Source: Flavobacterium sp. (GTDB lineage: Bacteria; Bacteroidota; Bacteroidia; Flavobacteriales; Flavobacteriaceae). Taken from it: a stretch of 64,000 bases of DNA. The translations under genes and the position numbers were made by a program. The stretch covers positions 78,854-142,853 of the forward strand of contig JACMLU010000028.1 in NCBI GenBank assembly GCA_014379405.1, in the 5' to 3' direction. The first letter of the stretch is position 1, and each line of letters starts with the position of its first letter. The notes beneath the pieces are model-generated. The model was not told where the DNA came from. It did no database searches and saw nothing but the letters and a program-made list of their open reading frames with translations. Shown here one piece after another: positions 577 to 35,882 of this stretch.

Positions 577-2151
577 TTATTCTGTAATTGCTTTTTTATC
601 CAGATCTTTCCCTTTTTTCACAACGGTACTTACATTATTAAATACATTGTTTTTCAGGAAAATATTCTTGGTTTCTTTTCCATCGGCTTCGATAAAAACA
701 TCGGTGGTGTTGAATGGAAAATTGTTGTTGATCATAATATTTGATGCGTTGTCGATTTTGATAACCGGAACTCCCTTGATTGGAGTTGAAGAACCTACGT
801 TGTCCAAAATGAGGTTCTTGGCATCCGAAATTTTGAAAGACGAACCCACTGTTGCATTCACTTTTACATCGTGAAATTCAACATCTGTTGCTGTAATCAC
901 CGTAAAACCTTCTTTGCCATCCATATTGATATTCGAAAAAGATATGTTTTGAATTGGCATTTCACTGATTCCGCGAACGAATCCGGCTTTGTTTACGTTT
1001 CCGCCCGTAACATTGCTGATGTGGATGTTTCTGAAAATTGGCGTGCGCTCTGTAACGGGCTCCACCGCATTGTCTTTATCATAGAACAAATCCAGAATAA
1101 TGGCTTCTTCCTTGATGTTTTTCATCACGATATTGTCGACGCGAATGTCTTCGACCACTCCTCCACGACCACGGGCCGATTTGATTCTAATTCCTCTGTC
1201 AGTTCCGTCAAAAACACAGTTCGAAATCGTGATTTTTTTGATTCCGCCCGACATTTCGCTTCCAATGACAACACCTCCGTGACCGCTTAACATTGTACAG
1301 TTTGTAATGGTTACGTTCTCGGTTGCTTTTCCGTATTTACGACCGTCTGCATCGCGACCCGATTTGATGGTGATACAGTCGTCGCCAACGCTGATGTGAC
1401 AGTTTGAAATGTGTACGTTGGTACAGGACGAAGGATTGATTCCGTCAGTATTTGGGGAATGTGGATTGTTAATTGTAATTCCCGTTATGTTTACATTGTC
1501 GCAAAATTCAGGATTTATGGTCCAGAAAGGCGAGTTTTTGAAGGTTACGCCTTCTATTAAAATATTCTTGCAATTATAAGCCTGGAAAAAAGAAGGTCTG
1601 AAAAAGTGTTTGTCAATTGTTCTTTTGTAGTAAGGCTCGTAAACGATTTCTTTGTTTTGCTCGACCCACATTTTTTGGTATTTGGTTTCCGGAATCGGGC
1701 CTTTGGCGGTTTCGATTCTGTAGACTTCGTTCCACCACGCTTTTCCTTGTCCGTCGATTACGCCTCTCCCTTTGATGGTGATATTCTCCACATCTTTGGC
1801 ATAAAATAATGGCGAGAATGACTGCATCACGATTCCTTCGTAACGCATTTCTACATACGGAAGGTAATCATCGAAATTCTCTGAAAATTTTAAAAGCGCA
1901 CCGGAATCTAAATGGATGGTGATGTTGCTTTTTAGTTTTAAAGCTCCGGTTAAATATTCTCCGGCAGGAAAAAATATGGTTCCGCCTCCGTTTTTAGATG
2001 CTTTTTCGATGGCGTTCTGAATGGCTTCGGTGCATTTTATGCCTTTGTTGTTTCCGCCTTCATTTAAGATGTTTAACCAGCCGTCGTTTGCGAAAGCGGT
2101 GTTTAATCCTGTTATGAAGAAGAGTATTATTATGATATTTTTGATTTTCAT
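577..2151 (-). CDS. GH28 polygalacturonase, secreted
   Basis: A 524-aa protein with a signal peptide (cleavage near AFA/ND, residues 20-22) followed by a right-handed parallel beta-helix. All GH28 signature motifs are present: NTDG with Asp236, GDDC with Asp257/Asp258, SGHGG with His291 and RIK at 322-324. It should hydrolyse alpha-1,4 bonds between galacturonic acid residues in pectin, as an exo- or endo-enzyme; the length and helix insertions fit the larger Bacteroidota exo-type or RG-type members, but this cannot be decided by eye. It lies downstream of the GH140 apiosidase with a 43-bp gap and is probably cotranscribed. Acting in the periplasm or at the cell surface, it would shorten oligomers imported by SusCD. 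Confidence 0.93.
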   Translation of the reverse strand: MKIKNIIIILFFITGLNTAFANDGWLNILNEGGNNKGIKCTEAIQNAIEKASKNGGGTIFFPAGEYLTGALKLKSNITIHLDSGALLKFSENFDDYLPYVEMRYEGIVMQSFSPLFYAKDVENITIKGRGVIDGQGKAWWNEVYRIETAKGPIPETKYQKMWVEQNKEIVYEPYYKRTIDKHFFRPSFFQAYNCKNILIEGVTFKNSPFWTINPEFCDNVNITGITINNPHSPNTDGINPSSCTNVHISNCHISVGDDCITIKSGRDADGRKYGKATENVTITNCTMLSGHGGVVIGSEMSGGIKKITISNCVFDGTDRGIRIKSARGRGGVVEDIRVDNIVMKNIKEEAIILDLFYDKDNAVEPVTERTPIFRNIHISNVTGGNVNKAGFVRGISEMPIQNISFSNINMDGKEGFTVITATDVEFHDVKVNATVGSSFKISDAKNLILDNVGSSTPIKGVPVIKIDNASNIMINNNFPFNTTDVFIEADGKETKNIFLKNNVFNNVSTVVKKGKDLDKKAITE

Positions 2152-2194: not shown

Positions 2195-3589
2195 TTATTT
2201 GTTTGACGTTAGAATTAGTACCCAGTCGTTTCCGTCTTCTTTTTTGCCGGAAGGCTGGAATTCTTTAGTTCCTTTGTTATCAAAAATTCCAATCTTTGTT
2301 TTTTCACCGTTTCTTGGGTCGTACCAGGTTGCGGTTACTTTATCTCCTGAAATTTTGCCCATATTTACGGTAATTTTTCTTCCGGTATAGGTATAAATCA
2401 AAGCATAATCATTTCCTCGGGTGGCGACCTGATAATCGTATTTTTTGCCTTGATTGGCCACTAATGTCTGGTCTGGAACTCTTTCTAAATACGGAAATTC
2501 CAACATCAGATTTTTGATGTACACCATTTGTCCGGCTCCCGGCGCATTGATGGCCGATGACCATAATTCTTTGTTTCCGTAGGCCGGATTGTCGCCTTTT
2601 CTGAACATTTGCATTACGGCATTGTGCCCGTATATGTAACCTGCTCCTCCTGCAAAAACGGACCAATATCCATAGCGTCTTACATCATTGGCAGTCCATT
2701 TTGGCTGTAAAGTATCGTGCAGACCGTGTGGAATTCCTTCGTATGATGGTTCTCCGTCAAGGGTTGGTTTGGTTGGTTTTAAATCCCAGTCTCTTTGAAC
2801 AAATTTGAAATTGTCTTCTTTGAAAGAGTTTTTCAAAGTATCCTGATCGTATCTTCTGTGACCTGATTGAAACATATTGAAATCCAGCCAGCTTGCGTTA
2901 TGAAAATTCTCTGATGAATCGGTTCTTCCGAATGGGTGGAACGTTACCAATTGATCTGGGTTACTTGTTTTTAAAATACTTCCGAGTGCGTTCCAAATGT
3001 CTTGAAATTTATCTCCATAGGTATCGCCACCGTTAAGCCAAATCACATTGGTTCTGTTTTTATATCGGTCGGCCAAAAACTTGGCGTATTTAGTTGCCTG
3101 ATCTTTGTTGACTTTATCTCCTTTTGAAACATTGGTTCCCCAAACGGGTACCATCGCTACATAAATTCCGTTTTTTTGGGCCACTTCCAAAGTGTAATCT
3201 ACGTGATCCCAATAATCGTATTCTTCTTTGTTATTGAAATTATTTCCCGGAGTTGTTATCGGTTTCGAAACGTCTTCATTAACTAAAGCTTTATCTCCAT
3301 ACACATTTACCGCATTGATGTTATGCAAAACCATCACCTGAATTACGTTGAATCCTTTTGCTTTTCTGTCCTGAAAATATTTATCAACTCCTGCTCTGTC
3401 TAACTTTCCAAAGGTCAGCCAACCGGTATCACCCAACCAGAAAAACGGTTTTCCATCTTCGGTTACGAAATAATGCTGGTTTTTGGATACTTTAAGTTTT
3501 GGCAATTTTTTGGATTGCGAAAATCCGCTTTGTGCCGTAAACATAAAGCATATACAAAGGGCATATAAATATTTTATTTTCAGATTCAT
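2195..3589 (-). CDS. GH140-like apiosidase (DUF4038 family)
   Basis: A 464-aa secreted protein (signal peptide ending near SGFSQ). The N-terminal DUF4038 TIM barrel shows FFWLGDTGW (about 49-57), VIWLNGGD with Asp189 and LDGEPSYEG with Glu280; these two acids are the likely catalytic pair. A short C-terminal beta domain (about 370-460) carries the WYDPRNGE motif typical of this family. Characterised GH140 enzymes remove D-apiose from rhamnogalacturonan II side chains. Its place between a GH28 and an uncharacterised beta-helix protein suggests it acts on apiose-bearing galacturonan. The family call is firm; apiose specificity is inferred from family and context. Confidence 0.88.
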   Translation of the reverse strand: MNLKIKYLYALCICFMFTAQSGFSQSKKLPKLKVSKNQHYFVTEDGKPFFWLGDTGWLTFGKLDRAGVDKYFQDRKAKGFNVIQVMVLHNINAVNVYGDKALVNEDVSKPITTPGNNFNNKEEYDYWDHVDYTLEVAQKNGIYVAMVPVWGTNVSKGDKVNKDQATKYAKFLADRYKNRTNVIWLNGGDTYGDKFQDIWNALGSILKTSNPDQLVTFHPFGRTDSSENFHNASWLDFNMFQSGHRRYDQDTLKNSFKEDNFKFVQRDWDLKPTKPTLDGEPSYEGIPHGLHDTLQPKWTANDVRRYGYWSVFAGGAGYIYGHNAVMQMFRKGDNPAYGNKELWSSAINAPGAGQMVYIKNLMLEFPYLERVPDQTLVANQGKKYDYQVATRGNDYALIYTYTGRKITVNMGKISGDKVTATWYDPRNGEKTKIGIFDNKGTKEFQPSGKKEDGNDWVLILTSNK

Positions 3590-3608: not shown

Positions 3609-6600
3609 TTATTTTTTTATTATGAACAGTACTTTTTCCTTCACATCAGAAGCTGGAATTGTAACTTTTTTTCCACCACTAATGTTTGCATTTTCCGATA
3701 CGCTTCCATTGGTTGCATTAATTGAATAGACATCGAAATCCCCTTTATATGCTGAAAGATCTAATGAAATATCTTGAGAATTCTTCGTGTAAAAAAGATA
3801 GGCTTTCCCTTTATTTTCCAATGTCCAAAGATTGTCTGAGAAAGAATTTCCATTAACAAATTTCATACTACTAATCGCCGAATAGAATGCCGGAATTTCT
3901 ATTTTTGGAATATTAGGCAACGACCCACCCGCCATTAAAACCGACCATCCAAAACGAGAAGATCCATCGGTAGAATACAAGACTACTTTCTCCGAATATT
4001 TTTCGCGATATTCACGAACAGCCCTGTATACCTGATCATCTGTTTCTTTGCCTACTCTCAATTTTCGGGCGTGTTGGCGTGGTGCTAAATTCAAACCGCC
4101 TTCAGGAGCATAAGCTGTTCCGTCTTCTTTGTAATACCAATACCGAATATCGATTGCATCTACAGTTTTGGCTCTATTGGCATCATTCAAAATAGCATCT
4201 TGCACATCTTTGGTGGCGCTCAATCCGATGATTCCATTTTTGCCTGTTTCCGTTTTCCATTTTTGGACTTCATCCAACCAAAATTGCATAAAGTGAAGTG
4301 GGCCTGTATATTCGGCACTGGTCAACTGAATGACGTTAGAATTATCTTGAAAATTTTCCAATGATTTTCGGATAAATCCTTGGTGTAATTTTCTTCTTGC
4401 CGGATTCGTAACGTCATAAAATTGTTCCGCCATAAAAATACGCTTGTCTCCAGCATAAGGCGGTGGTTCAGGAAAACCTGTACTGCTGATATTATTAGCC
4501 GAACGCCAAGGAGAACTAGACCAATGCGCACCCGCTTCTATAATATTGTGCTGGAAATACTGTTGGTTGACCAACAATTGTCCGTTCGTTTCCGCTAAAT
4601 TGGCAAAACGAGCCAATCGATTCCAATACCAATCATTGAATTTTGTCAAATCATATTTGCTTAATTGATCCCAAGCCAAATCCTGTCCGCTTCTGGCGAA
4701 TGGTTGCTCGTAAAACGGAGGCCAAACATCCGAATCGAAACGGCGAACGCGCTCGTGATCATCCATTCTTCGTTCGTACCACAAGCCATAATTATGTTCT
4801 AAGGCTATCATATTATTAGTCGCCAAATAATCAACCACTTCGTTGATATTATCCGTTAATCCAGTACCTGTTCTACCTGGAACAAATCGGGTTATATGTG
4901 GCACAGCTTTAGAAACATCACTATCTCTAAGACTACCTCGCCACCAAGGCACGCTTAATCGGTTTCCGGCAATTAATTTATCATCATAAGTAAGCCAACC
5001 ATTTTGGGTCATTACTTTAGATTTATTGTTGGCAATTGTAGAATTTATTTTTAAATCGTTGGCGTTTTTAAGCCCCGAAGCATTTGAATTAATTGGATTG
5101 GATTTAGAAACTTCGGCAATAAATTCTGGTAAACTCTGCTTTACAGCCACTGAATTTTTAGTCAATTCTTGAGCCACTTCAACAGCAGGACTAGAGGAAG
5201 GCTCCGAACCTAAATCATAAATATGGGAATCTACCGGAAGTTTTCCTAGTCTATTTTCTAACTGTGCATAAAACAAACTTCTAGGACTAATATGGCCGTT
5301 TACCTCTTTCCAATGACCGTCCCCAGCCATAATGCCACCCCAAACTCCAAAAGCCCAGTTTTGCGCCGTTGGTGGATTGTAACATTCTATTTTTGAGGCT
5401 GAAGTTTCCCAAATCACACTATTGGCGGCAGTCCAACCAGCACCTCTACCATTTTGCTCTCGGTTGTTAAAGTTCAAAGCATTGCCATCAATATAGGCAA
5501 TATCAAATAATACGCCCGTGGCCCAACTACCAATAGCTCCACTGTTATTAAAAGGCAAATGGGATTCGCATTGTACAAAAACATTGGGTCCCGTAGTTCC
5601 AAATCCGCCAACTGCAAAATCGTGATAGCCGTATTCGGAGTAACAACGTTGAAACAAAGTTTGTTGACCTTCGGTATAAAAAGTGTGTCTTCTGAAACCT
5701 GCAATTTCCGAGATTGGTTCGGTTGCGATACAATCTTCAACAGTAATTTGTTGGGCTGATTTTAGTAGAGAAACCGCTCCACCTGCAAAGTGCTTAAAAT
5801 TGACTTGTTTTACCCAAATATTCTTTGCGTTTTCGATGCTAATTCCTAACCATCTGTGTTCTTCGTCTTTTGGATTCGAAGCATTATAGGTTGATTTCAT
5901 CAAAATATTTTCAATTCCAATTTGTTCGATTCTTCCCGACCAAGTGTATATTGTAACTTTTGAAGTTCCATAAGCATCGTCCAAAGCCATTGTCAAAGGA
6001 GCATTTAATGTCACTTCATTCCCATTTACTTTGGTCACCACTCTATTCCAAGAGATATCCCAATCATTTTTTTTCCAGCCAATCCAAGAAGTTTCGGCTC
6101 CAAAATCATCCATCTTCAATTCCTTGATCCAATTATCGGTCAAAGGTTTGCTAATGATAATTTCGTCGGATGTTTTTAATTTGGAAGCGTTTTTTAATTG
6201 GATTTTTTGTATTCCAAGCGGTGTATAAGAAATCGCAAATTCAAAAGTATCTCCCAACTTTTTATCATCCACTCCCAAAACTCGGATTACAGATTCTCTT
6301 TTTAATCCAGTTCCCAACAATACTGTTCCATTATCATTGTTTCCACTTCCGCGCAAAACAACACCCGAAGTTTTGATGTATAAAGTTCCGCTAACTTTAA
6401 ACGTTCCTTTATCTAAAAGAACTGCGCCACGAAAACCCGATTTGTTTGGTTTTAATGCACTGACATAATCAATTGCTGCTTGGATAATTTGGGTGGCATC
6501 TTGTTCTTGTTTTGGAACAAAAATTTTATTTTCCACATTCGGAATTGCTTTTTCAGAAGCCATATAACCGGCATACGAAAAATCAGGAATTTGCTTCGCC

Positions 6601-6794
6601 AGTTCGCCTTTCAGGCTCGGGTGGTTTCCTAGTTTATCTGAAGTAACAGAAAGTTTTCCTTCTTTGGTTTTTGCAATATCAGGAAATGTGTTTTGTGCAA
6701 CTCCATTGATGATGCAAAAAAGCAAAACAAAACCGGACAAAATCATTTTATCTTTTTGAAGAGCGATTCTATTTTTGAGTTGTATAAAATTCAC
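3609..6794 (-). CDS. Large two-domain protein: beta-helix plus TIM-barrel-like region
   Basis: A 1061-aa secreted protein. The track start is probably 16 codons long; a start at Met17 gives a clean signal peptide (MILSGFVLLFCIINGVAQ). Residues about 75-490 look like a right-handed parallel beta-helix (repeated short NIWVKQVNF/ITVEDC-type strands, FQRCYSEYGYHDFAVGG). Residues about 600-980 look like an alpha/beta barrel domain (ALEHNYGLWYERRMDD, NVIQLTSAEYTGPLHF, DAIDIRYWYY). A short C-terminal beta domain (KGKAYLFYTKN) resembles those closing glycosidases. I believe it belongs with DUF4955/DUF6298-type proteins, but this is recall, not a search. It sits 19 bp upstream of GH140 and is probably cotranscribed. 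Activity unknown. Confidence 0.8.
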   Translation of the reverse strand: MNFIQLKNRIALQKDKMILSGFVLLFCIINGVAQNTFPDIAKTKEGKLSVTSDKLGNHPSLKGELAKQIPDFSYAGYMASEKAIPNVENKIFVPKQEQDATQIIQAAIDYVSALKPNKSGFRGAVLLDKGTFKVSGTLYIKTSGVVLRGSGNNDNGTVLLGTGLKRESVIRVLGVDDKKLGDTFEFAISYTPLGIQKIQLKNASKLKTSDEIIISKPLTDNWIKELKMDDFGAETSWIGWKKNDWDISWNRVVTKVNGNEVTLNAPLTMALDDAYGTSKVTIYTWSGRIEQIGIENILMKSTYNASNPKDEEHRWLGISIENAKNIWVKQVNFKHFAGGAVSLLKSAQQITVEDCIATEPISEIAGFRRHTFYTEGQQTLFQRCYSEYGYHDFAVGGFGTTGPNVFVQCESHLPFNNSGAIGSWATGVLFDIAYIDGNALNFNNREQNGRGAGWTAANSVIWETSASKIECYNPPTAQNWAFGVWGGIMAGDGHWKEVNGHISPRSLFYAQLENRLGKLPVDSHIYDLGSEPSSSPAVEVAQELTKNSVAVKQSLPEFIAEVSKSNPINSNASGLKNANDLKINSTIANNKSKVMTQNGWLTYDDKLIAGNRLSVPWWRGSLRDSDVSKAVPHITRFVPGRTGTGLTDNINEVVDYLATNNMIALEHNYGLWYERRMDDHERVRRFDSDVWPPFYEQPFARSGQDLAWDQLSKYDLTKFNDWYWNRLARFANLAETNGQLLVNQQYFQHNIIEAGAHWSSSPWRSANNISSTGFPEPPPYAGDKRIFMAEQFYDVTNPARRKLHQGFIRKSLENFQDNSNVIQLTSAEYTGPLHFMQFWLDEVQKWKTETGKNGIIGLSATKDVQDAILNDANRAKTVDAIDIRYWYYKEDGTAYAPEGGLNLAPRQHARKLRVGKETDDQVYRAVREYREKYSEKVVLYSTDGSSRFGWSVLMAGGSLPNIPKIEIPAFYSAISSMKFVNGNSFSDNLWTLENKGKAYLFYTKNSQDISLDLSAYKGDFDVYSINATNGSVSENANISGGKKVTIPASDVKEKVLFIIKK

Positions 6795-6873: not shown

Positions 6874-8580
6874 TTACTGCAATAATCCTTTGGACTTTGC
6901 CAAAGTATCGGTATTGTTTTCGGCTTTCGACCAATCAGTTTTTTGAGTTGGATCGATACCGTTAAAATATTTTTCTAAGTTGGTATATCCATCTCCATTC
7001 AAATCTTTATTAGCATCAGTAGCATCTTTTGGATTCAAACCATATTTCTTCTCCCAGTTGTCCGGAATTCCGTCATTATCCGAGTCTTTATAAGCTTTCC
7101 CTTTGTATTCTGGATAACCGCCCACTTGATTTGGGTTGGTTATAATTCCTTTTTTATACGAATCGGCAGGCAATCTTCTTTTGATAAATTCTTTGCCAAT
7201 GTTGTTTTCTAAACCGTCTTTAACCTCAATTTTTCCTGTTCGAACTTGTTTGATAATTCGTTCGTCAACGGCATCCCTTTTTGGAATTGTTGCCCCAACA
7301 TTGTTCAACACAAACTCATACGCTTCTTCTGCCTTCATTATTTTAAATTGTGGCATTGCGAATGGTTTTGGCTGTTTGATTAATTCTAAATATTCTTTTG
7401 ATTGTTCCAACGAAAGGTCTTCGAGTTGAATTCCACCATTCCAATTGTCGGCAGTAACTTCAGGAGATCCATTTATATAATTTCCAGAAACATAAGCTCT
7501 ACCAAAAGTTTTTGGTTTCATATAACCCGATTCTGGCTTCAAGATTCTGTAACGAATAGGCTCGTCTTTAGGAGTTATTGGTCCCGGCTTGAAATAATTG
7601 TTGATGATATTAAACATGGAACGATAATCTCCGCCATCCAAAGAACGGTTCCACCAATTGAAAATCACGTTATTTACAAAATTGAAGTCGCCATACATCC
7701 CGATAGAAGCATTTCTGGAAATGTTATCGGCCCATAAATTTCGCATAAAGGTACTGTTCAAACCTCCAATAGTACTTCCGAAAGCGTGATTGTAAGTGTC
7801 CATCCCTTCTGAAGAAATCGTGTTTTGAATGGTAATATTTACCGCTGGTAATTTTTCCAATTTGGATTTATCATTTGCCTGAAACTGGTGTCTGTACAAA
7901 GAAATATTTTCGTCTAAACCCCAACTTACCGAGCAGTGATCAATGATGATGTTCCCCATTGGATTTCCTCCCAATGCATCATCTCTTCGAGTTACATCGG
8001 TGGCACCTCTACGAAAACGCATATGTCTTATGATAACATCGTGCGTATCGATTTCCAAAGTTTCGCCTGCGATACAAATACCATCGCCCGGCGCTGTTTG
8101 ACCCGCAATAGTAACATAAGGAGCACGCATACTGATGCGGTTTTTCAATCGGATAATTCCCGAAACATTGAATACGATGGTTCTTGTACCAACTGCTTCG
8201 CAAGCTTCCCTGAAAGTTCCTTTTCCATTATCTTCCAAGCTAGTTATCACAAATATCTTTCCGCCACGACCACCTTGGGTAAAAGCTCCACCACCTTCGG
8301 CTCCAGGAAATGCTGGAATTTCGGAAGGTACAAAATCTTTAGGATACGAAGCCCAAGGTAAATAAGGTCTGCCGTGTTTTGCTTCTTCCTTGAGCACATT
8401 TTCGTTGCTTTTCCAAATTTCACCTAATCGGATTTCTTCTTTTGCCAAAATAGAATCTGTTTTGGCTTGAAGTTCTTTAGGAATTTCTGGATATTGGGCA
8501 AATACCGATGAAAAAGTCAGGCAAAAAGTTATTGCCATCATTACCTTCTTCGAAAAGTTATTTTGAAAAATGTTAAACAT
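6874..8580 (-). CDS. PL1 pectate lyase with calcium-binding C-terminal repeat
   Basis: A 568-aa protein with a signal peptide ending near SVFAQ (about residue 29). The PL1-type core starts at AFPGAEGGG (90-98) and shows GGRGG, VTIAGQTAPG (156-165), VIIRHMRFRRG and IIIDHCSVSWGLDE (211-224), the conserved beta-helix motifs of the family. It should cleave polygalacturonate by beta-elimination with calcium. The C-terminus (about 493-540) carries DSDNDGIPDNWE and DLNGDGYTN, thrombospondin-3/EF-hand-like calcium loops. It is closely similar to the 571-aa lyase two genes upstream, so the pair arose by duplication. DUF3826 sits between them, 41 bp upstream. Confidence 0.93.
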   Translation of the reverse strand: MFNIFQNNFSKKVMMAITFCLTFSSVFAQYPEIPKELQAKTDSILAKEEIRLGEIWKSNENVLKEEAKHGRPYLPWASYPKDFVPSEIPAFPGAEGGGAFTQGGRGGKIFVITSLEDNGKGTFREACEAVGTRTIVFNVSGIIRLKNRISMRAPYVTIAGQTAPGDGICIAGETLEIDTHDVIIRHMRFRRGATDVTRRDDALGGNPMGNIIIDHCSVSWGLDENISLYRHQFQANDKSKLEKLPAVNITIQNTISSEGMDTYNHAFGSTIGGLNSTFMRNLWADNISRNASIGMYGDFNFVNNVIFNWWNRSLDGGDYRSMFNIINNYFKPGPITPKDEPIRYRILKPESGYMKPKTFGRAYVSGNYINGSPEVTADNWNGGIQLEDLSLEQSKEYLELIKQPKPFAMPQFKIMKAEEAYEFVLNNVGATIPKRDAVDERIIKQVRTGKIEVKDGLENNIGKEFIKRRLPADSYKKGIITNPNQVGGYPEYKGKAYKDSDNDGIPDNWEKKYGLNPKDATDANKDLNGDGYTNLEKYFNGIDPTQKTDWSKAENNTDTLAKSKGLLQ

Positions 8581-8621: not shown

Positions 8622-9290
8622 TTATTTACCCGATTTAGCTTTTTCGCGTTCTTCCACACGTTTGTGCCAATCGGTACTTTCTTTGTTCAAATCGTATCCT
8701 TCTTTAGATAAATAATTATTGATTCTTCCTTTGTATTTACCAAACCAAGCGTGTTTTTCTTTGGATGAACCTCCGTCCATTGCGTGTTCTCTGGCTTCAA
8801 CCAAAGCATCGTAAATGTATTTTTTTTGTGCTTCGGTTAAATTAGGTAACATATCGTTATAACCGGCAACCGTAATTGGCAAAACGCCATACGTCATTCC
8901 GTCTTTTACTTCGATAATTTTAGCTTCGTTTAATTGAGTGCCTAATTTTTTCAAATAGGATTTGTGCAATTTATCAATTGCTTTGTCGGCATCGGCTTTC
9001 AGTTTATCAATTGCTGCGTTTTGTTTTTCTTTAGCTAAAGTTCCACTTTTTACTTTAGCGATTTCAGCATCTCTAGCATCCTGAATTTTACTCAAATCAC
9101 GAAATTGTTGCGCAATAATATTAGTTACGGCTACTTCTTTTTTAGTATTTGCCAAAGCTAATTTAGCCACAATTTTGGCTGCTCGTTCATTGGTAACTTT
9201 GATATATTCTGGGTCTGTATTTTGAGCACTGATTTTGCAAAAAGCAAACAGCAGCAACAATAGACTTAGACTTAATTTTTTAATTGACAT
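8622..9290 (-). CDS. DUF3826 secreted helical protein
   Basis: A 222-aa protein with a signal peptide (MSIKKLSLSLLLLLFAFCKISAQ) and an almost wholly helical, lysine-rich body (AEIAKVKSGTLAKEKQNAA). The C-terminal stretch MDGGSSKEKHAWFGKYKGRINNYL is the recognisable DUF3826 motif. The function is not known to me. Proteins of this family occur beside PL1 lyases in pectin loci, and here it lies directly between two paralogous PL1 genes, so a role in binding, folding or presenting the lyase or its product in the periplasm is plausible but is inference. No catalytic motif is visible. Confidence 0.85.
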   Translation of the reverse strand: MSIKKLSLSLLLLLFAFCKISAQNTDPEYIKVTNERAAKIVAKLALANTKKEVAVTNIIAQQFRDLSKIQDARDAEIAKVKSGTLAKEKQNAAIDKLKADADKAIDKLHKSYLKKLGTQLNEAKIIEVKDGMTYGVLPITVAGYNDMLPNLTEAQKKYIYDALVEAREHAMDGGSSKEKHAWFGKYKGRINNYLSKEGYDLNKESTDWHKRVEEREKAKSGK

Positions 9291-9364: not shown

Positions 9365-11080
9365 TTAATCCAACAAAGGTCTTGTTAAAGTCTCTTTATT
9401 ATTCGCTAAATCTTTCCAATCTACTTTCATCGCTGGATTTACACCATTGATGTAATCTTCGATATTAGCATAACCATCGTTGTTCAAATCGCCTTTAGCA
9501 TCAGATGGATCATTTGGATTAAGACCGTGTTTTTTCTCCCAAATATCAGGAATACCATCTTTATCAGTATCTACATAAGGTTTACCTTTGTATTCTGGAT
9601 AACCACCTACTTGAGAAATATCGGTAATGATACCTTGTTTGTATGAATCAGCAGGTAAACGACGGTGCTGAAATTGATAGAATGTTTTTTTCTCTAATCC
9701 TTTGGCATATTCTGGAACCCCAGTTTTTACTGTTCTAACTATTCTTTCGTCAACTTTGTCTCTGATTGGTAAAGTTGCACCAACATTTTTAAGTACAAAA
9801 TCATACGATTCTTCGGCAGTCATAATTTTATTAAACCAAGGCATTGGAAAAGGTTTGTCGCTTTTCATTTTGTCAAAAAATGGTTTGGCTTCATCATAAG
9901 TCATTAATTCCCCTTTCTTATTTTCGATTTGAATACCGCCATCCCAATTGTTTTTGGTTACTTTTTCGTTATTGTTAATCACATTTCCATTAACGTGAGC
10001 TCTACCATAAACCATATAAGGCAATTTGCTTCTTCCTGATTCTGGTTTTAAAATTCTATAGCTTATAGGCTCCGCTAAATTAGTCACCGGTCCTGGCTTG
10101 TAAAAATTGTTAATGATATTGTAGTTGGCCGTATAATCGCCACCATCAGTCGATCTGTTATACCAGTTAAAAATAACATTGTTAACAAAATTGAAAATAC
10201 CATTCCAACCAATTGAAGGGTTTCTACCGGCATTATTGGCCCACATATTTCTCATAAAAGAACAATTTTCTCCTCCCAATGTACTACCAAAAGCATGGTT
10301 GTAAGTATCCAATGCTTCTCCGAACAAACTGTTTTGAATGGTGATGTTTACAGTACCTTTCTTCTCGTCTGGATAACCAGCACCCGGGCTGTACATATGA
10401 CGGTACATCGACATATTTTCATCTAATCCCCAAGTTGCCGAAACGTGATCTATCATAATATTTCCTACTGGATTTCCTCCGATGGCGTCATCTCTACGAC
10501 CTACAAAAGTTTCTCCCCTACGAAAACGCATGTGTCTTATAACTACATCGTGAGTATTAATCCAAACGGATTCTCCCGCTACACAAATACCATCACCTGG
10601 AGCAGTTTGTCCCGCAATAGTAATATAAGGAGCACGGATAATTAATGGACTAATGATTTTTATAATTCCCGAAACATTAAAAACGATAATTCTGGCTCCA
10701 CCTTTTTCGCAAGCTTCACGCAAGGTTCCAGGACCTCTGTCTTCTAAACTTGTTACAGTGTAAACATTTCCCCCACGACCACCAAATGTGTACATTCCTC
10801 CACCTTCGGCTCCTGGAAAAGCAGGGATTGATGCTTGCGGCAAATCGTTTGGTCTTGATGCCCAAGGAATGAATGGTTTTCCTTGTTTGGCTTCTTGTTC
10901 AATAATTATGCTCGCTTTTTCCCAAGCTTCATCGGAACGTTTCGTAGCATCATCCATAATAACCTTGGATTGCGCTTGGACTTCTGGAGATAGTGAAGGG
11001 TACTGTGCAAAACATTTTGCATTCCCTAAAAATAGCAGGGGTAAAATAAATAAAATGGATTTTTTCATAATAATTTTCAA
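9365..11080 (-). CDS. PL1 pectate lyase, paralog of the 568-aa lyase
   Basis: A 571-aa protein. The ATG at Met5 (MKKSILFILPLLFLG) is the more natural start and gives a signal peptide ending near CFAQ. It shows the same landmarks as the other lyase: AFPGAEGGGMYTFGGRGG, ITIAGQTAPGDGIC, VIIRHMRFRRGE, IMIDHVSATWGLDE, and a C-terminal calcium-loop pair (DTDKDGIPDIWE, DLNNDGYANIE). It is the first enzyme gene after SusCD, separated by a 14-bp hairpin, so it is likely coexpressed with the transporter at a lower or different level. Two close copies side by side may differ in preference for methylated or substituted galacturonan. Confidence 0.93.
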   Translation of the reverse strand: MKIIMKKSILFILPLLFLGNAKCFAQYPSLSPEVQAQSKVIMDDATKRSDEAWEKASIIIEQEAKQGKPFIPWASRPNDLPQASIPAFPGAEGGGMYTFGGRGGNVYTVTSLEDRGPGTLREACEKGGARIIVFNVSGIIKIISPLIIRAPYITIAGQTAPGDGICVAGESVWINTHDVVIRHMRFRRGETFVGRRDDAIGGNPVGNIMIDHVSATWGLDENMSMYRHMYSPGAGYPDEKKGTVNITIQNSLFGEALDTYNHAFGSTLGGENCSFMRNMWANNAGRNPSIGWNGIFNFVNNVIFNWYNRSTDGGDYTANYNIINNFYKPGPVTNLAEPISYRILKPESGRSKLPYMVYGRAHVNGNVINNNEKVTKNNWDGGIQIENKKGELMTYDEAKPFFDKMKSDKPFPMPWFNKIMTAEESYDFVLKNVGATLPIRDKVDERIVRTVKTGVPEYAKGLEKKTFYQFQHRRLPADSYKQGIITDISQVGGYPEYKGKPYVDTDKDGIPDIWEKKHGLNPNDPSDAKGDLNNDGYANIEDYINGVNPAMKVDWKDLANNKETLTRPLLD

Positions 11081-11258: not shown

Positions 11259-13256
11259 TTAATTTTGATAATCATAAGTCCCTGAATTACCAGAAGCATC
11301 ATTCCACCCTTTAGTTTGTGATAACCATGGATTTTGAGACAAAACAGTAAGATTAAGTCCCATAATATAATAATTCGATTTCCAATCAATATTAGTTGCC
11401 ACATTATTCACAGCATCCATAGGTGTTGGAGGAGAACGTAATACAAAGTTACTTGTGTAGAAAGTAGCTAAAGCTGTAATTTGAGCTGCAAAATTACTAG
11501 CATCCGGATCAACTGATATAGCTGCTCTGGCAGTAGCCAATGGATCTGTATTTGTAGCACTAGTACCATTTTTGTAATGTAAATAATTACCTATTCTTTG
11601 TGTTCCGTTTAATGTAGCAATACCAAGTTTAGCATTGGTGTTGTCATTTAAACTTGCATCATCGCTATACAGCAACCAACGTTGAATATCATAAAAACGT
11701 TTACCTTCATAAGCTAATTCCACTCTACGCTCATACAAACATGCTTCTAAAGCAGCATATTTCGTAGTTAAAGTTCCAATACCATAATTGTTAGCTGAAG
11801 AAATTCCTACACGGTTTCTAACTTTACTCAAATACGTTATAGTATTTGAAATATCATTTTTAGCCGCATAACATTCAGCGATATTCAACAATAATTCAGC
11901 ATAACGATATTCCATAATATCAGTCCCTGAAAACTGGAAATTTGACGCATTACTAACTGTAGGACTCGACATTTTACGAACAAAAGCTGGACTGGAAACA
12001 TCATTCCCCATACTATAAGCTACACCTGTAGTTGCATTAGTTGACCAACGATATGCCCACACTGTTGGTTGAGTAGTTGTAGTAGTAATGGTATTATTGT
12101 AAGGCCAATAAGATCCTGAAAAACCAAAAGTTCTGTAAAAACGAGGATCACGATCTTTAAAGAAAAGAAATGGATCATAATTAGTACCAGCAACTGGTCT
12201 GGCTCCAGTATTTGTTGGAAATAAATCAATCATACTTTTTGGTACATCAACACCTCCACTACCTTGACCACCTTGACTAGCCAAACGAATTGTTCTTTCC
12301 CAAGAATTATTTGAAAATAATGAACCTGTATTACCATCTGATAAAAGTTTAATAGTAATTGCTTCTTTATTAAAGGCATTATTATTAATATAAAACATTT
12401 CAGCCCATTGTTTAGCAGTTGTTCCATATAAGCCATAGCCATCTTGAGTTAACTGAGTTTCAGCTGCCAAACCCGCTGCCAAAGCAGCATCCCAACGACT
12501 GTTATCTGTATCCCAGTTTTTATTAAACAAAGGACTAGCATATGTTAATAATACACGAGATTTTTGAGCAATTGCTGCACCTTTGGTATAACGTCCATAA
12601 TTTGCAGCATCCCAATTTGGAGGCAATAAAGTAGCCGCCTTATCTAAGTCAGCAACTATCTGATTCACTACTTGTGCTACTGTAGCCCTAGGCAATTTGA
12701 TAGATTCGTCAGTATTAGTAGCAACCTGAACTGTTGTGACAATCGGAACTCCACCAAACGTACGCATTAAATCATAATACTGAAGTGCACGCAAATAATA
12801 TAATTGCCCTTTTATTCTATCACGAAATTGTTGTGCCAAATTAGCACCTAACACATCTAGATTTTCTAACATGGCATTACAATCTCTAATTCGATTGTAC
12901 GGTACATTATCAAAAGCATCTCTTAGAGCTGGTCCATAGTAACCTGAACCATCTTGTGCATTTACTAAAGTAATATTAGGATTAATAAAATTAGAAATCC
13001 CCCCTATTTCTTCTGTATATGAAGTTTCAGTTGTAGTAAAAGAACCTACTCTAATTGCAGTAGGGGTTTTATAACCATCAAAAAAATCATAATACAAATT
13101 ATTCACGTATTGATTTACACGCTCTTCACCTTGATAAAACTCCTCGTCATAGTATTTAAATTGTTTTTTTTCTTCTAAAAAATCATCACTACAGGAAGAA
13201 GCTCCTAAAACCAGAAAAAGTGATACTACTATATATTTATTAATTTTTGTTTTCAT
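11259..13256 (-). CDS. susD: SusD/RagB-family surface glycan-binding lipoprotein
   Basis: A 665-aa protein with a lipoprotein signal and lipobox ASSC (Cys22) followed by SDD, which fits a surface-export signal in Flavobacteriia. N-terminal SusD-like helices (YDEEFYQGEERVNQYVNNLYYDFF, RDCNAMLENL, LRALQYYDLMRTFGGVPIV) and the C-terminal RagB/SusD part (YRYAELLLNIAECYAA, CLYERRVELAYEGKRFYDIQRW) are both clear. It acts as the lid of the SusC transporter and binds pectic oligosaccharides at the outer membrane. It follows susC with an 18-bp gap. At 665 aa it is on the long side for the family. Ligand specificity is inferred from the neighbouring enzymes. Confidence 0.95.
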   Translation of the reverse strand: MKTKINKYIVVSLFLVLGASSCSDDFLEEKKQFKYYDEEFYQGEERVNQYVNNLYYDFFDGYKTPTAIRVGSFTTTETSYTEEIGGISNFINPNITLVNAQDGSGYYGPALRDAFDNVPYNRIRDCNAMLENLDVLGANLAQQFRDRIKGQLYYLRALQYYDLMRTFGGVPIVTTVQVATNTDESIKLPRATVAQVVNQIVADLDKAATLLPPNWDAANYGRYTKGAAIAQKSRVLLTYASPLFNKNWDTDNSRWDAALAAGLAAETQLTQDGYGLYGTTAKQWAEMFYINNNAFNKEAITIKLLSDGNTGSLFSNNSWERTIRLASQGGQGSGGVDVPKSMIDLFPTNTGARPVAGTNYDPFLFFKDRDPRFYRTFGFSGSYWPYNNTITTTTTQPTVWAYRWSTNATTGVAYSMGNDVSSPAFVRKMSSPTVSNASNFQFSGTDIMEYRYAELLLNIAECYAAKNDISNTITYLSKVRNRVGISSANNYGIGTLTTKYAALEACLYERRVELAYEGKRFYDIQRWLLYSDDASLNDNTNAKLGIATLNGTQRIGNYLHYKNGTSATNTDPLATARAAISVDPDASNFAAQITALATFYTSNFVLRSPPTPMDAVNNVATNIDWKSNYYIMGLNLTVLSQNPWLSQTKGWNDASGNSGTYDYQN

Positions 13257-13274
13257 AATTGCAATTAAATTAAA

Positions 13275-16200
13275 TTAGAATGACACATTCATACTAAGCG
13301 ACCAAGTTCTAAGCGTGGGATATTTTGTAGATGAATCATCATACATATTACGGTATTTATCTGGGTATGGATTGTATAAGTCCCATAAATTTTGACCCGT
13401 TATACCAAAATTAAGACCATCAATTTTTATAGATTTTAGCGCCTCTTTAGGAAGTGCAAAACCTACTGTCAAGTTTCTAACCACACATCTGAAAGTATTT
13501 AGTTGCCAAAAATCGGATGGAGCAAAAATATAATCTTGTTGCCCCATGTTAGGGTATTTTCCATTAGGATTATCCGTAGCATCATACATATCATTCCAGA
13601 AACTTTCATGACCCCAATCATTATGTGCAGAAGAAGTTCCTTGTTTAACCATATCAAGTGTATTGTAACCACCCCAAGAAGTAGAAATTTGTGTTCTTAA
13701 AGAAAAACTTTTGTATTTCATTCCTAAATTAGTAGTAAAACCATAAGTTCTATTTTGGTTAACCAATTTTTGATAATCGTCGTTTCTGGTAATTTTTCCA
13801 TCAGCAGGACGTCTCTCACCAGTAGCAACATCAAAAGCTCCTCCAACATCTTCATAAGCAAGCATCCCTTTTCTCATATTTGTTACACTTGTTATATTCA
13901 TATAATTTGGAGTTCCTCCTACTGCTGTAGCACGCTCTGTTAAGTATTGCCAATAGTTAGTGACATCCTGATCCGTACGCAAAATACCATCTCCTGTTGA
14001 AGTATCTTTCCAAGTTTTGAATCCCCAAACAGGAGTTATTAATGAGCTACCTGCAACCCTAGGATTAAATGACGGATCAGTCAAAGCTGCTTCAGGATAT
14101 TTTTTAATCTCATTATTAGAAAAACCAAAGTTAACCCCTACATTATAACTGAAATTATTTTTTATATTGTCTCTCCAATTTAAACTGAACTCAGTTCCCC
14201 AAGTATTCATTGCTGCATAATTTGACTCAGCAGTTGCACCACCTACAGAAATTGGAGTACCAGCTTGACTAGCTAAAGTAACCAACATATCTGTTTTTTT
14301 ATCAAAATAATAATCTGCCGTAATTTGCAATCTATTATTTAATAAGGCTAAATCAATACCAAAGTTATTTTTCAAAGTAGAATCCCATCTTATATCTCTA
14401 TTGGGAGTAACTCTAGGAGTTATACCTGAACCTAAAGTACCTCCTGCGCCTCCAAATTGAGCTCCTTTATCAACAATTGGCTCCCATAGTTGCAACCAAC
14501 GCCATGTCTGAAGATTATCATTTCCTGTTTTACCAATAGAATAACGCAATTTCAAATTATCTACCCATGATACATTTTCAGAAAACCAATTCTCCTTAGA
14601 TACAACCCAACCCACTTGTGCACCTGGGAAAAATCCCCAATAATTTTCAGGAGCGAATTTAGTAGAAGCATCCGAACGGAAAAGTGCTTCTATTAAATAT
14701 TTATCTTTATAACTATAATTCAAACGTCCTAAGTAAGAAAGCGTTCCTGCCTCTCCCTTGTCAGCAAGAGAATTTGAACTAATTGGTCCCGCAGAAGTAC
14801 TAGAACCTAAATAATCTTTACCTGTTCCCTCATAAGCCAAACGTACTGTTTTATAATCTGATTCAGAACGCTCCATACCTACCATACCAGCTACAGAATG
14901 GTCTCCAAAAGTTCTTGAATAATTGGCAAAAATATTCGCTTGAACCAAATTAGTCAAATCAGTATTATAATATACTCTTGAACCACGAATATTGGTTTCT
15001 GGTAAACCATTATTTGCATATGTAGAATTAGGATTCAAAAGATGATTATCTTCAAGATGATGATTAGTAATTCTAAGTAAGTCATAAGGCAACTGAACTT
15101 GTTCAGTATTAGCACTAGATTGACTTCTGGCATAACTTCCTTTAACAGACATTCCCTCTATAAAAGGAACTTTATATGTTAAATTTAAATTCACATTGTA
15201 TGTAAATTCTTGATCGATTTGTTTCCCAGCATCTTGAGCTGCAAAATAATTCCATCCTGCAATAGTAGTATTCGCATTAGCACTTCCTAAGTTACGATCA
15301 GTACGAGGGAATGGTGACATCCAATAATCTACTCCATTACGATTCGTTTGCCAAGGCACATATTTAGGCATATGCAATAAATACATATAGTCAGCCTGCT
15401 CTCCAGCACCTAGTGAACCAAAACTACTGTCATTCAAATTTGCTGAAGCTTTTGAAAATGATTTTTCTAAATCGTATGTACTAACTGCAATAGAAGCAGA
15501 AAAATCCAAACTATTACTGACTTTCACATTAGTACCTGTACGGAAATTCCATTTATCATAATCTTGTGATCCTAAGTTAGCTCCTTGAGTAAAGTAAGTT
15601 AATCCAGCAAAATAGGTTGCTTTATCAGTTCCTCCACTCACATTAAAAACGTGTCTTTGTTGTGTCGCTGGTTTCCAAGCTTCTTTTAACCAATCATAAT
15701 CTAATCCTTTCATTTGCTCTAATTCAGCTGCAGAAAAATAATTGGCAGGAGTAGCGTTTAGATTAGAATTTAAGAATCTATTTTTCCAAATTCCATGTTC
15801 ATTAGCACTCATTGTTTTCACATGACTTATGGCATCATTCACAGCAAATTGGCTATAGTATGTAAACTTCGCCTTACCCTCTTTACCCCTTTTTGTTTTT
15901 ACAATAATTGCCCCTTGAGAAGCACGAGAACCATAAATAGCCGCAGAACCATCTTTCAAAATAGTAATACTTTCAATTTCTGAAGGATCTAATCTATTGA
16001 AAGTTTCTTGTGTAGGCTTTCCTGTTTCTGGATCCACCTGAACCATATCATCAATCACAATCAATGGAACTGTGGAATGACCATCTTTAGAAAAACCATA
16101 ACTTTGACGAATTTGAATATCTGCAGCTCCTCCAGGACGACTAGATCCATTACCATTGCTTACTGATAAACCTGGAGTCAATCCTCTTAAAGCCTCTGCT

Positions 16201-16631
16201 AAATTAGAAACAGGTAAATCTTGAATATTTTCTGGATTTATAGTTGCAACAGCACCAGTAATCTTATTTCTTTTCTGTGTACCATACCCCACAACAACAA
16301 CTTCATCCAGAGTCGTTGTATCATCCTTCAACGATACATTAATAACAGTTTGATTTCCGACTGTTTTCTCTACCCTGTCCATTCCAATAAAAGCAAATAA
16401 AAGAATCGCCCCTTTATTCACAGAAATTTTATAATTTCCATCCACATCGGTAGTTGTACTACTTTTTGTTCCCTTTTCAACAACGTTTGCACCAGGTAAG
16501 CCCAAACCTGTGTTATCGATTACCTTCCCAGTGATAATTATTTTATCTCCATTAGTTGTTTGAGCAAAGCCCGACAAACTCAACAGAGCAAATAACAGTA
16601 CACCACATACCTGTTTAATAGTTTGTTTCAT
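13275..16631 (-). CDS. susC: SusC/RagA TonB-dependent outer-membrane importer
   Basis: A 1118-aa protein with signal peptide (ending SLSGFAQ), a carboxypeptidase-regulatory-like domain (about 30-110, IITGKVIDNTGLGLPGANV), the DEVVVVGYGTQ motif before the plug domain (about 115-235, LRGLTPGLSV, SIEILKD-like IESITILKDGSAA), and a large beta barrel ending in an aromatic residue (SLSMNVSF). It forms with SusD the TonB-powered pore that brings pectin fragments into the periplasm. It is the first gene of its transcription block, preceded by 892 bp without genes that must hold its promoter. Length is typical of SusC proteins. Confidence 0.96.
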   Translation of the reverse strand: MKQTIKQVCGVLLFALLSLSGFAQTTNGDKIIITGKVIDNTGLGLPGANVVEKGTKSSTTTDVDGNYKISVNKGAILLFAFIGMDRVEKTVGNQTVINVSLKDDTTTLDEVVVVGYGTQKRNKITGAVATINPENIQDLPVSNLAEALRGLTPGLSVSNGNGSSRPGGAADIQIRQSYGFSKDGHSTVPLIVIDDMVQVDPETGKPTQETFNRLDPSEIESITILKDGSAAIYGSRASQGAIIVKTKRGKEGKAKFTYYSQFAVNDAISHVKTMSANEHGIWKNRFLNSNLNATPANYFSAAELEQMKGLDYDWLKEAWKPATQQRHVFNVSGGTDKATYFAGLTYFTQGANLGSQDYDKWNFRTGTNVKVSNSLDFSASIAVSTYDLEKSFSKASANLNDSSFGSLGAGEQADYMYLLHMPKYVPWQTNRNGVDYWMSPFPRTDRNLGSANANTTIAGWNYFAAQDAGKQIDQEFTYNVNLNLTYKVPFIEGMSVKGSYARSQSSANTEQVQLPYDLLRITNHHLEDNHLLNPNSTYANNGLPETNIRGSRVYYNTDLTNLVQANIFANYSRTFGDHSVAGMVGMERSESDYKTVRLAYEGTGKDYLGSSTSAGPISSNSLADKGEAGTLSYLGRLNYSYKDKYLIEALFRSDASTKFAPENYWGFFPGAQVGWVVSKENWFSENVSWVDNLKLRYSIGKTGNDNLQTWRWLQLWEPIVDKGAQFGGAGGTLGSGITPRVTPNRDIRWDSTLKNNFGIDLALLNNRLQITADYYFDKKTDMLVTLASQAGTPISVGGATAESNYAAMNTWGTEFSLNWRDNIKNNFSYNVGVNFGFSNNEIKKYPEAALTDPSFNPRVAGSSLITPVWGFKTWKDTSTGDGILRTDQDVTNYWQYLTERATAVGGTPNYMNITSVTNMRKGMLAYEDVGGAFDVATGERRPADGKITRNDDYQKLVNQNRTYGFTTNLGMKYKSFSLRTQISTSWGGYNTLDMVKQGTSSAHNDWGHESFWNDMYDATDNPNGKYPNMGQQDYIFAPSDFWQLNTFRCVVRNLTVGFALPKEALKSIKIDGLNFGITGQNLWDLYNPYPDKYRNMYDDSSTKYPTLRTWSLSMNVSF

Positions 16632-19482: not shown

Positions 19483-21504
19483 TTAATGCGACAACCAAAC
19501 TGACATTTCGCCTTTGCCTTGATTCCCCCATGCAAAATAAGGAATTAATTTTATGGAATATGTTTTACCTTCGTTTTTAGGAATGGGTTGGTATAACTTT
19601 TTATCCCAAGAATTATCTGGAGTAATGGACGAACTGGCATTAATACTGAGTAAATTTCGATTGTCAATTTTAATAAAATCAGTGGTAAATGTAGAATTTA
19701 GATTCAACAAAACATCATTCACTTTAGTGTTCGCCGGAAGTTGATTGGATTCCAAACAATACACTATTGGCCCACGTTTTACAGCCACTTGATTCTTGAT
19801 TTCTTCTACTAGCGGATTGGCTTGCATCAATTCAACCGGCATTGGGATATTCAATTCTATGACCTCCCCTTTTTTCCATTTTTGCACTATTTTTTGGTAC
19901 GAACCTGAAACAATAGCATCATCAATATTTCTACCATTGATTGAAATTGTAGTTCCTTGACTCCAACCCGGAATTCTCAAGAAAAAAGCTTGTTCGTCTT
20001 TGGGAGCTTTCACAATTTTCAAAGTGATTTTTCCATCCCAAGGATAATTGGTTTGTTGTTCAATTTCGATTTTTTCTCCTGTAAGCGTAGTTGAATTCAA
20101 ACTGTTGCTGCCGTACAAATTCACATACAATCCTTCTTTCGAAAAATTATAAGCGTAATTGCTGATCTCGGCTATGGTTCTCGTCACGTTTGGCGCACAG
20201 CAATTCGACAAGGCAATATAACCTTCACGTTCTTTGCTCCATCTTTGTTTGAAAGGTAAATCTTTGGAAACATTCAACGGATTGTTGTAAAAAAATTCGG
20301 TTCCTTCCAAACTGATTCCAGACAACACACTATTATAAAGCGCCAATTCCACAATATCGGCATATTTTGCATCGGCAGTAATTTGAAGCATTCTCCAATT
20401 CCACAAAACATTCCCGATATTGGCACAGGTTTCTGTATGAGCCGTGGCATTTGGCAATTGAAACGGTCTTCCGTAAGCTTGATGAATTTTTTGTACATCG
20501 GCAGGATTATACGAAGTTCCGTCTGGCGAAACGCCGTCATACAAAGAACCGCAAGCTCCGGTAATGTACATTTTTCGATAAGCAACGTCATTCCAAATGG
20601 ATTCCAAATTACCCAATAATTTCTTCTCTCCCGTTTCGGCATATAAATCGGCAACACCAGCATACAAATAATTGGCTCTAACCGCGTGACCCATTGCCGT
20701 AGTCTGTTGCCTGAACGGAATTCTGTCTTGATTATCGTCTGTTCCGTCATTGGTTGCTCCTCTAATATCAATTAGATTATTGGCCAATTCTAAATATTTT
20801 GGATTTTTCGTGGTGCGATACATTTCGACAATTCCCATATAATGAGAAGGGCAAATAGCATTTCGAGCTAAATCTGGCGATGCTTTTTTATAGAAATCAT
20901 ACAGATAATCAGCAACACCTTTGGCGATATTCAAGAAATTGGTTTTTCCGGTGGCACGATAATGCACGCAAGCGGCAGTCATCAAATGTCCCATATTGTA
21001 TTTCTCGAAACCCAACTGTTTTTTTACTTCTTCCGGCCCTAAAGTTCCCCAACGTTCGTCTATTAAAACGAGAGTATGCAAATAGCCGTCTTTGCGTTGT
21101 GTTTTTGCAAAAAGCGCAATGGCTTTGTCCATTTCCGCATCCAATTTCTTGTCTTTCGTAACGGCATAAGTAGCAGCCATTCCTTCAAAAATCTTGTAAA
21201 AATCTCCGTCGTGAAAAGAGGGTCCTTTAAAAGTTCCTTTACTTTCACCAGCCGCGATTTCGAAATTTTTATAGGCGTGCGAAATCGAATCGTTATGATA
21301 CAAATTCCACATATACGGCAAGGTATTTTTGGTTTCCACATCAAATTGTTCTTTCCAAAAACCATTTGTCCATTGTACGTCCTGCAAATTCAGACTTTGC
21401 AATTTAGAATAAGGACTTTCCGAATTGGCAACCAGGCCTTTATTCTGCGCCACAAAGGCTGTAGAAAAAAGTATCGTTGATAATAGAATGATTTGCTTTT
21501 TCAT
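19483..21504 (-). CDS. GH127 beta-L-arabinofuranosidase-like enzyme (DUF1680)
   Basis: The track starts at 21534, but Met11 (21504) gives a proper signal peptide (MKKQIILLSTILFSTAFVAQ), so I prefer it, making 673 aa. The protein is an (alpha/alpha)6-barrel glycosidase. The zinc/cysteine site of GH127 is visible: HTETC (Glu368, Cys370 in track numbering) and SNCCAPNVTR (Cys445/Cys446, the second being the likely nucleophile). Known members release beta-L-arabinofuranose; related families act on other side-chain sugars. A long C-terminal beta-sandwich follows (about 460-680). It would trim arabinose-bearing pectin chains. A hairpin in the 125-bp gap upstream separates it from the large PL1 gene. 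Confidence 0.9.
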   Translation of the reverse strand: MKKQIILLSTILFSTAFVAQNKGLVANSESPYSKLQSLNLQDVQWTNGFWKEQFDVETKNTLPYMWNLYHNDSISHAYKNFEIAAGESKGTFKGPSFHDGDFYKIFEGMAATYAVTKDKKLDAEMDKAIALFAKTQRKDGYLHTLVLIDERWGTLGPEEVKKQLGFEKYNMGHLMTAACVHYRATGKTNFLNIAKGVADYLYDFYKKASPDLARNAICPSHYMGIVEMYRTTKNPKYLELANNLIDIRGATNDGTDDNQDRIPFRQQTTAMGHAVRANYLYAGVADLYAETGEKKLLGNLESIWNDVAYRKMYITGACGSLYDGVSPDGTSYNPADVQKIHQAYGRPFQLPNATAHTETCANIGNVLWNWRMLQITADAKYADIVELALYNSVLSGISLEGTEFFYNNPLNVSKDLPFKQRWSKEREGYIALSNCCAPNVTRTIAEISNYAYNFSKEGLYVNLYGSNSLNSTTLTGEKIEIEQQTNYPWDGKITLKIVKAPKDEQAFFLRIPGWSQGTTISINGRNIDDAIVSGSYQKIVQKWKKGEVIELNIPMPVELMQANPLVEEIKNQVAVKRGPIVYCLESNQLPANTKVNDVLLNLNSTFTTDFIKIDNRNLLSINASSSITPDNSWDKKLYQPIPKNEGKTYSIKLIPYFAWGNQGKGEMSVWLSH

Positions 21505-21554
21505 TTTATAATTATATTTTAAATATTTTGCCACAGATTAAAAAGTAAAATTCC

Positions 21555-26495: not shown

Positions 26496-27929
26496 CTACC
26501 ACTCATCCGTACGGAACGACGAAACTGGTAAACCTCCCGTACTGAACAATTCCGCTTTGGCAAAATCCTTGAATAAATATCGAACCGCCGCTGGTTTTGC
26601 AACTTTATCCGAAGTAAGTACGACCGATTTTCGGCGAACTTCGGCTTTGGCAGGATAAAAAACCTTGTCCTCTCCAGCAATTTCAAAACCTGTTACTTCT
26701 TTTCCGTAAGCTGTAATTCCGTTGGGCGCATCGTCAAAAGACACCGTTGCTTTCGCATCCACAATTTCCATACCTTTAAATTTTGGACTCTCAAATTCAA
26801 AGCCTTCTATTCCGTAGGTTTTGGCCAAAGCCAAATATCCCAAGCGATTTCCTCCCTTTTCTTTATCTACTGGATGGATATTATTTTCTTCGCCAATATC
26901 CATCAAAACGACCATTCCTGAATTCGGAATTCCCTTTGAAGCTTTCAATTGTGCTTCTCTCAAATAAGCCGAATTGTATTTTTCTAAATTATCTTTTGGA
27001 TGAAATTGTGCATAATTAAACGGGGCGATTTGAGCATAATAAAAAGGGAAATCGCCTTGTTTCCACAACTCTCTCCAACTGCCGACCATCTTTTTCATCA
27101 AAGCGGTATATTCTGATGCCCGTTCGTAATTTGATTCGCCTTGATACCAGATACAACCTTTGATTCCGTAACCTATAACAGGTGAAAGCATTCCGTTGAA
27201 CAAAGTCGTCGGCACACGGTTTGGGTCTTTTGCCAATTCCTCTTTCGTGGTTGGAATTTTGGCGCTTGCAAAATCTTTCAGCATTTCCTGATTCATCCAA
27301 GCTTCCATACTGGATCCGCCGTAAGAAACGTGAATCAACCCAACCGGAACTTGTAAAACTTCCTGCAAAAGCGAACCGAAGTACCAAGCCGTCGCACTAA
27401 AATTACCAACAGATCTTGGTGAAGCCGTTTCCCATTTTCCTTCAAAATTATCCAAAGGTTCCAAAACAGTAGCACGCGGAATCGTAATCAAACGAATGTT
27501 TTTATTGGTTGATCTAACGATGATTTCGTTGCCATTTTTAACGGGTTGTCCCGGAAAACCTTTCAAAGGCATTTCCATATTCGACTGACCAGAACACAGC
27601 CAAACTTCGCCAATTAATACATTTTTTACGACTACTTTTTCGCTTCCTTCCGAAACTTCAATCGTAAATGGTCCACCAAAAGATGGTGTTTGTAATTCTG
27701 CTTTCCATTTTCCAGAATTGTCTGCTTTCAGCTTGTAGGTTTTAGAATCCCAAGAGGTTTTTATTACAACATTGGCGTTCTTGTCTGCCCAGCCCCACAT
27801 TGGTGCATTTGCCTTTTGCTGTAGCATCATATTGTCCGAAAACAAAGCCGGTAATTTTATTTTGGCATTAATTTGAAAACTTCCTAAAATCAAAAAAATT
27901 GCAATAATATAGTTTCTAAAATGTGTCAT
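26496..27929 (-). CDS. SGNH-type acetylesterase (sialate O-acetylesterase family)
   Basis: A 477-aa secreted protein (signal peptide ending FQINA). It carries the SGQSNMEMPL block with the nucleophile serine, GCIWYQGESNY (the conserved Gly/Asn block) and a C-terminal beta domain. The family removes acetyl groups from sugars; in pectin loci it is expected to deacetylate galacturonic acid or rhamnose residues. Its ATG overlaps the GH106 stop by 4 bp (ATGA), so translation is coupled to the rhamnosidase, which suggests that an acetylated rhamnose-containing fragment is the common substrate. No true sialic-acid genes are nearby. Confidence 0.88.
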   Translation of the reverse strand: MTHFRNYIIAIFLILGSFQINAKIKLPALFSDNMMLQQKANAPMWGWADKNANVVIKTSWDSKTYKLKADNSGKWKAELQTPSFGGPFTIEVSEGSEKVVVKNVLIGEVWLCSGQSNMEMPLKGFPGQPVKNGNEIIVRSTNKNIRLITIPRATVLEPLDNFEGKWETASPRSVGNFSATAWYFGSLLQEVLQVPVGLIHVSYGGSSMEAWMNQEMLKDFASAKIPTTKEELAKDPNRVPTTLFNGMLSPVIGYGIKGCIWYQGESNYERASEYTALMKKMVGSWRELWKQGDFPFYYAQIAPFNYAQFHPKDNLEKYNSAYLREAQLKASKGIPNSGMVVLMDIGEENNIHPVDKEKGGNRLGYLALAKTYGIEGFEFESPKFKGMEIVDAKATVSFDDAPNGITAYGKEVTGFEIAGEDKVFYPAKAEVRRKSVVLTSDKVAKPAAVRYLFKDFAKAELFSTGGLPVSSFRTDEW

Positions 27930-31398: not shown

Positions 31399-35804
<4,406 letters not shown>

Positions 35805-35882
35805 TTCAAATTTAATTTGCTTCAATGGAACGCAGATGACACGGATCGAACTGATTTTCGCGGATTTCTTTATTTTTTAATC

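Follow-up and report, generated by a model that had tools for sequence, protein, structure and literature searches.

Rhamnogalacturonan II (RG-II) is the most complex of the plant cell-wall sugars; aceric acid is one of its constituent sugars, its 4-O-linked uronates belong to the backbone, and its breakdown has reportedly been described as nearly complete in work on Bacteroides thetaiotaomicron. The window studied here, by which we mean the whole 64,000-nucleotide stretch of a Flavobacterium sp. contig, is an RG-II locus in which a protein of 1061 aa is encoded beside a GH140 apiosidase. In the literature that we searched, DUF6298 proteins had no role assigned to them, and there was likewise nothing on BT1013, DUF4955 or DUF5703. 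Since the DUF6298 protein nearly always occurs with RG-II genes, it probably performs an undescribed RG-II step. The genes that set the scene are the following:

577..2151, minus strand: GH28, from Pfam
2195..3589, minus strand: GH140 apiosidase (Pfam Apiosidase 1.1e-110, plus Collagen_bind_2), both catalytic acids kept (D189, E280)
3609..6794, minus strand: 1061-aa protein with a PL29-like beta-helix and a DUF6298 barrel, from the open reading frame, Pfam, alignment and an AlphaFold2 model
6874..8580, minus strand: PL1-like pectate lyase, directly upstream of the 1061-aa gene (partial PelZ match)
8622..9290, minus strand: DUF3826, from Pfam
9365..11080, minus strand: PL1-like pectate lyase (partial PelZ match)
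11259..16631, minus strand: SusD and SusC pair, head of the operon
19483..21534, minus strand: GH127 aceric acid hydrolase, an RG-II marker (1110 bits vs a cut-off of 950)
27926..31336, minus strand: GH106 alpha-L-rhamnosidase
34674..35825, minus strand: GH137-like module, matching the N-terminal part of a beta-glucuronidase/beta-L-arabinofuranosidase model
42536..45049, minus strand: GH141 domain protein with a C-terminal L-rhamnose mutarotase (rhaM) domain

Eight of these genes follow one another on the same strand (SusC, SusD, PL1, DUF3826, PL1, the 1061-aa gene, GH140 and GH28) with gaps of 18-178 bp, and the spacing to the downstream GH140 gene is 19 bp, so that the apiosidase neighbour named in the earlier note stands, in both its position and its Pfam identity. 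DUF3826 is also found in BT1022 and at the C-terminus of BT1017 in B. thetaiotaomicron (PMC7939467). Enzymes specific to RG-II, namely the above-cut-off aceric acid hydrolase and the GH137-like module, lie alongside the 1061-aa gene, and the window additionally encodes GH78-type genes. The NCBIfam beta-glucuronidase/beta-L-arabinofuranosidase model is a fusion of GH137-like and GH2 parts; in the window these parts are separate, adjoining genes (GH2, 31399-34674; GH137-like, 34674-35825) in the order of the fused model. The RG-II locus also holds a DUF5703_N protein (24093-26450) and a 553-aa protein with a partial match to an alpha-galacturonidase model (35979-37640).

The 1061-aa reading frame opens with a GTG codon, in place of which some close homologs have ATG at the matching start. 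Residues 493-977 match the full length of the DUF6298 model (PF19815; 1.2e-236, 786.6 bits), a Pfam family of unknown function whose model omits most of the helix, and the N-terminal half received no Pfam assignment. An AlphaFold2 model built on a 50-sequence alignment (mean pLDDT 78.7, pTM 0.76) lays the protein out as a right-handed beta-helix (about 69-520), a helical linker, a (beta/alpha)8-like barrel (about 600-965) and a beta-sandwich (about 985-1061), and with Foldseek matches for both halves it bears out the arrangement of beta-helix and glycosidase-like barrel that had been proposed from the letters of the DNA. The modules map to the window as follows:

5235..6590, minus strand: N-terminal beta-helix module, residues 69-520, homologous lengthwise to PL29-like proteins and with invariant residues
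3900..4994, minus strand: barrel module, residues 601-965, within DUF6298, from Pfam, hhalign, the model, Foldseek and conservation
3612..3842, minus strand: C-terminal beta-sandwich, residues 985-1061, like the GH140 C-terminal domain, from profile comparison and the model

In a sample of the phylum, each of the 19 genomes that match DUF6298 over its full length has the fused form, in open frames of 1011-1083 aa, and the architecture is thus not a matter of chance. The N-terminus is hydrophobic and has no lipobox cysteine; we place the protein, provisionally, in the periplasm. A sequence search of the PDB returned no close relative (top match 7chu, 5.5e-5, over 69 positions), and the libraries searched contained no characterised member of the two-domain family.

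For the N-terminal half, comparison with PL29-like proteins, a set retrieved with the BT3328 model, gave remote homology over 450 aligned columns (hhalign, E 3.4e-23), running from a common PDFSYAGY..E..IP start to an SLFYAQLxxRL end. The NCBIfam model for BT3328 (PL29) itself matched residues 206-348 at 1.8e-9, with a score of 36 bits against an equivalog cut-off of 1100. Structural matches of the helix in the PDB were polysaccharide lyases and tailspikes, specifically the K1 capsule lyase 7w1c, LKA1 gp49 (4ru4) and 7chu. Across an alignment of 107 sequences, reaching as low as 41% identity to the window protein, the helix residues K309, D310, E311, H313, E363, R368, R369 and R383 are kept in at least 98.5%. 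In the hhalign alignment the helix lacks the invariant residues of the PL29-like set, with K309-D310 in place of His290/291 and R368 in place of His346, and the helix chemistry may therefore differ from that of the PL29-like set. Further stand-alone PL29-like beta-helix proteins are encoded on another contig of the window's own genome (G000:C14, 285127-286158 and 295848-296507).

For the barrel, the closest solved folds are GH140 apiosidases, led by BT_1012 (5msy, 2.7e-11), and when the barrel half was queried by itself, the top sixteen Foldseek matches were all of GH140 type (5msy, 3kzs, 4qfu, 8t9w; entries tied by sequence). This ranking was the only use made of the query, a weaker barrel-only AlphaFold2 model (pLDDT 66.7). 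Direct profile comparison of the barrel half with GH140 aligned the C-terminal sandwich only, and the link was obtained through Foldseek and a bridging family of about 490 aa, which matches the barrel at E 4.8e-22 (hhalign) and GH140 over its last 134 columns at E 7.8e-10. This single-barrel family (L024-L034; L155, 3027-4481) has an invariant NE motif and a weak DUF6298 match as its only Pfam name, and one copy has DUF6298 and GH140 close by in an RG-II locus. E828 is set by hhalign on an invariant Glu of the bridging family and lies four residues past strand 4 (VIQL-TSA-E), the same spacing as the GH140 acid (VIWL-NGG-D), so that the acid/base position carries a carboxylate, Glu here and Asp in GH140. 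Kept in at least 98.5% of the 107 sequences, with their spatial clustering read from strand order only, are D679 and H680 (after strand 2), E753 and H749 (strand 3), E828 (strand 4) and D863 and D866 (strand 5). After strand 7, at 937-945, where GH140 has the Glu that we take from BT_1012 to be the nucleophile, as we do the other residue roles, no acid is conserved among these sequences (D943 in 66%). Of the paired acids that the earlier note proposed to look for in the barrel, at about 600-980, an invariant E828 is present, and the classic pair is missing. Structure prediction of the two halves, which that note had called for, returned a beta-helix and a GH140-like barrel, each with invariant polar residues. 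The protein has no PF13204 Apiosidase match and belongs to neither PL29 nor GH140, though each half has a related fold, and we class it as uncharacterised.

Beyond the window, the DUF6298 gene tracks RG-II capacity in three genome samples. In 396 genomes of the phylum, 19 had a full-length DUF6298 match and 20 an above-cut-off aceric acid hydrolase, with both in 19 (Fisher p 2e-31); in 198 genomes of the order to which the genome of locus L111 belongs, the two occurred in an identical 7 (p 5e-13); and among 121 genomes from the genus that includes genome G602, the hydrolase was above cut-off in 33, DUF6298 was present in 36, and both were found in 33 (p 1e-26). These p-values are optimistic, because the genomes are related and one is common to two samples (G276/G602, equal coordinates). 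We take the last genus for Bacteroides, as the GH140 of one member is 99% identical to BT_1012; that genome also carries a DUF6298 protein. Three DUF6298 genomes of this genus have no above-cut-off hydrolase, and one of these three, G674, has the hydrolase in two pieces. A single genome of the phylum sample has an above-cut-off hydrolase and no DUF6298 (G228:C14, 77809-79761; L147), and it provides a natural test of whether the DUF6298 step is dispensable.

In the named collection, the loci closest to those of the window's genome are mostly from Flavobacterium. Of the 80 closest loci, 79 have PL1 nearby, the one exception being cut by a contig end, with GH140 in 76 and GH28 in 59; homologs away from pectin genes, which the earlier note had named as grounds for abandoning its proposal, did not occur among them. 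PL1 was directly upstream of the DUF6298 gene in all five Bacteroides-type loci read, and in these GH140 was not adjacent, being located elsewhere in the genome. Universal GH140 adjacency was hence dropped, as it holds mainly in relatives of Flavobacteriia/Sphingobacteriia type. One locus (L148, 5863-12120) has a tandem pair of DUF6298 genes whose products share about 45% and 43% identity with the window protein; the 20 kb read there showed no PL1.

The neighbours GH140, PL1 and GH28 would also suit an enzyme for apiogalacturonan or plain apiose-substituted homogalacturonan, with the tie to RG-II incidental. We regard this as very improbable, given the near one-to-one co-occurrence with an enzyme for an RG-II sugar. 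The earlier proposal of an apiose-bearing galacturonan as target is therefore narrowed: the window's genes for aceric acid hydrolase and the GH137-like module, together with the near-perfect co-occurrence across genomes, point to RG-II, and apiogalacturonan was dropped on the hydrolase result.

As to what the protein does, we put at about even the chances that it works in the periplasm as a two-module RG-II enzyme with both modules active, the helix on the acidic backbone and the barrel as a glycosidase. The PL29-like helix would attack the acidic galacturonan backbone alongside the adjacent PL1, with beta-elimination as the likeliest chemistry; as the 4-O-linked uronates of RG-II lie in the backbone, it is there that the helix, if a lyase, acts. 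The GH140-like barrel would remove or trim a side-chain residue, with Glu828 as the general acid and a partner other than the strand-7 glutamate of GH140, for which D863 or D866 are candidates. It is unlikely, in our estimate, that the barrel alone is catalytic and the helix a module that binds or positions the galacturonan backbone, even though non-catalytic beta-helix modules are possible, the helix lacks the residues that the PL29-like proteins conserve, and the barrel is conserved more strongly than the helix (invariant positions in the 107 sequences: barrel 23%, helix 17%, linker 5%, C-terminal sandwich 1%); the helix's own invariant set of K, D, E, H and R exceeds what a scaffold needs. 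The converse, a catalytic helix (a backbone lyase or a GH28-like hydrolase) joined to a degenerate GH140 relative that binds apiosyl branches, draws on the loss of the strand-7 nucleophile position and on PL1 being the most constant neighbour, and is slightly less likely again, since no other part of the protein is as conserved as the barrel, which keeps E828 across the whole alignment. Returning to the two-module reading, a stronger form can be offered tentatively: a dual-activity founder of two new CAZyme families, a PL29-related RG-II-backbone lyase together with a glycosidase related to GH140 whose catalytic pair differs, performing a near-obligate RG-II step absent from published pathways.

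A gene that tracks RG-II breakdown almost one-to-one across the Bacteroidota, and that has two predicted enzyme modules, suggests a missing or a redundant step; new lyase and glycosidase families are a possible outcome, and DUF6298 would offer a second marker by which RG-II degraders could be recognised from their genomes. Relative to the closest described enzymes, the N-terminal half is homologous lengthwise to PL29-like proteins, whereas BT3328 is a chondroitin/hyaluronan lyase acting on glycosaminoglycan and the locus here is pectic, with the helix fused to a barrel. GH140 (BT_1012, 5msy; 8t9w) shares the fold of barrel and beta-sandwich, and differs in the Glu after strand 7, which the DUF6298 barrel has not conserved as an acid. 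At the level of the locus, the window and the B. thetaiotaomicron RG-II system have in common, in a likeness that we take in part from general knowledge, genes for GH140, aceric acid hydrolase, GH137-type, GH141, GH106, GH28 and DUF3826 proteins.
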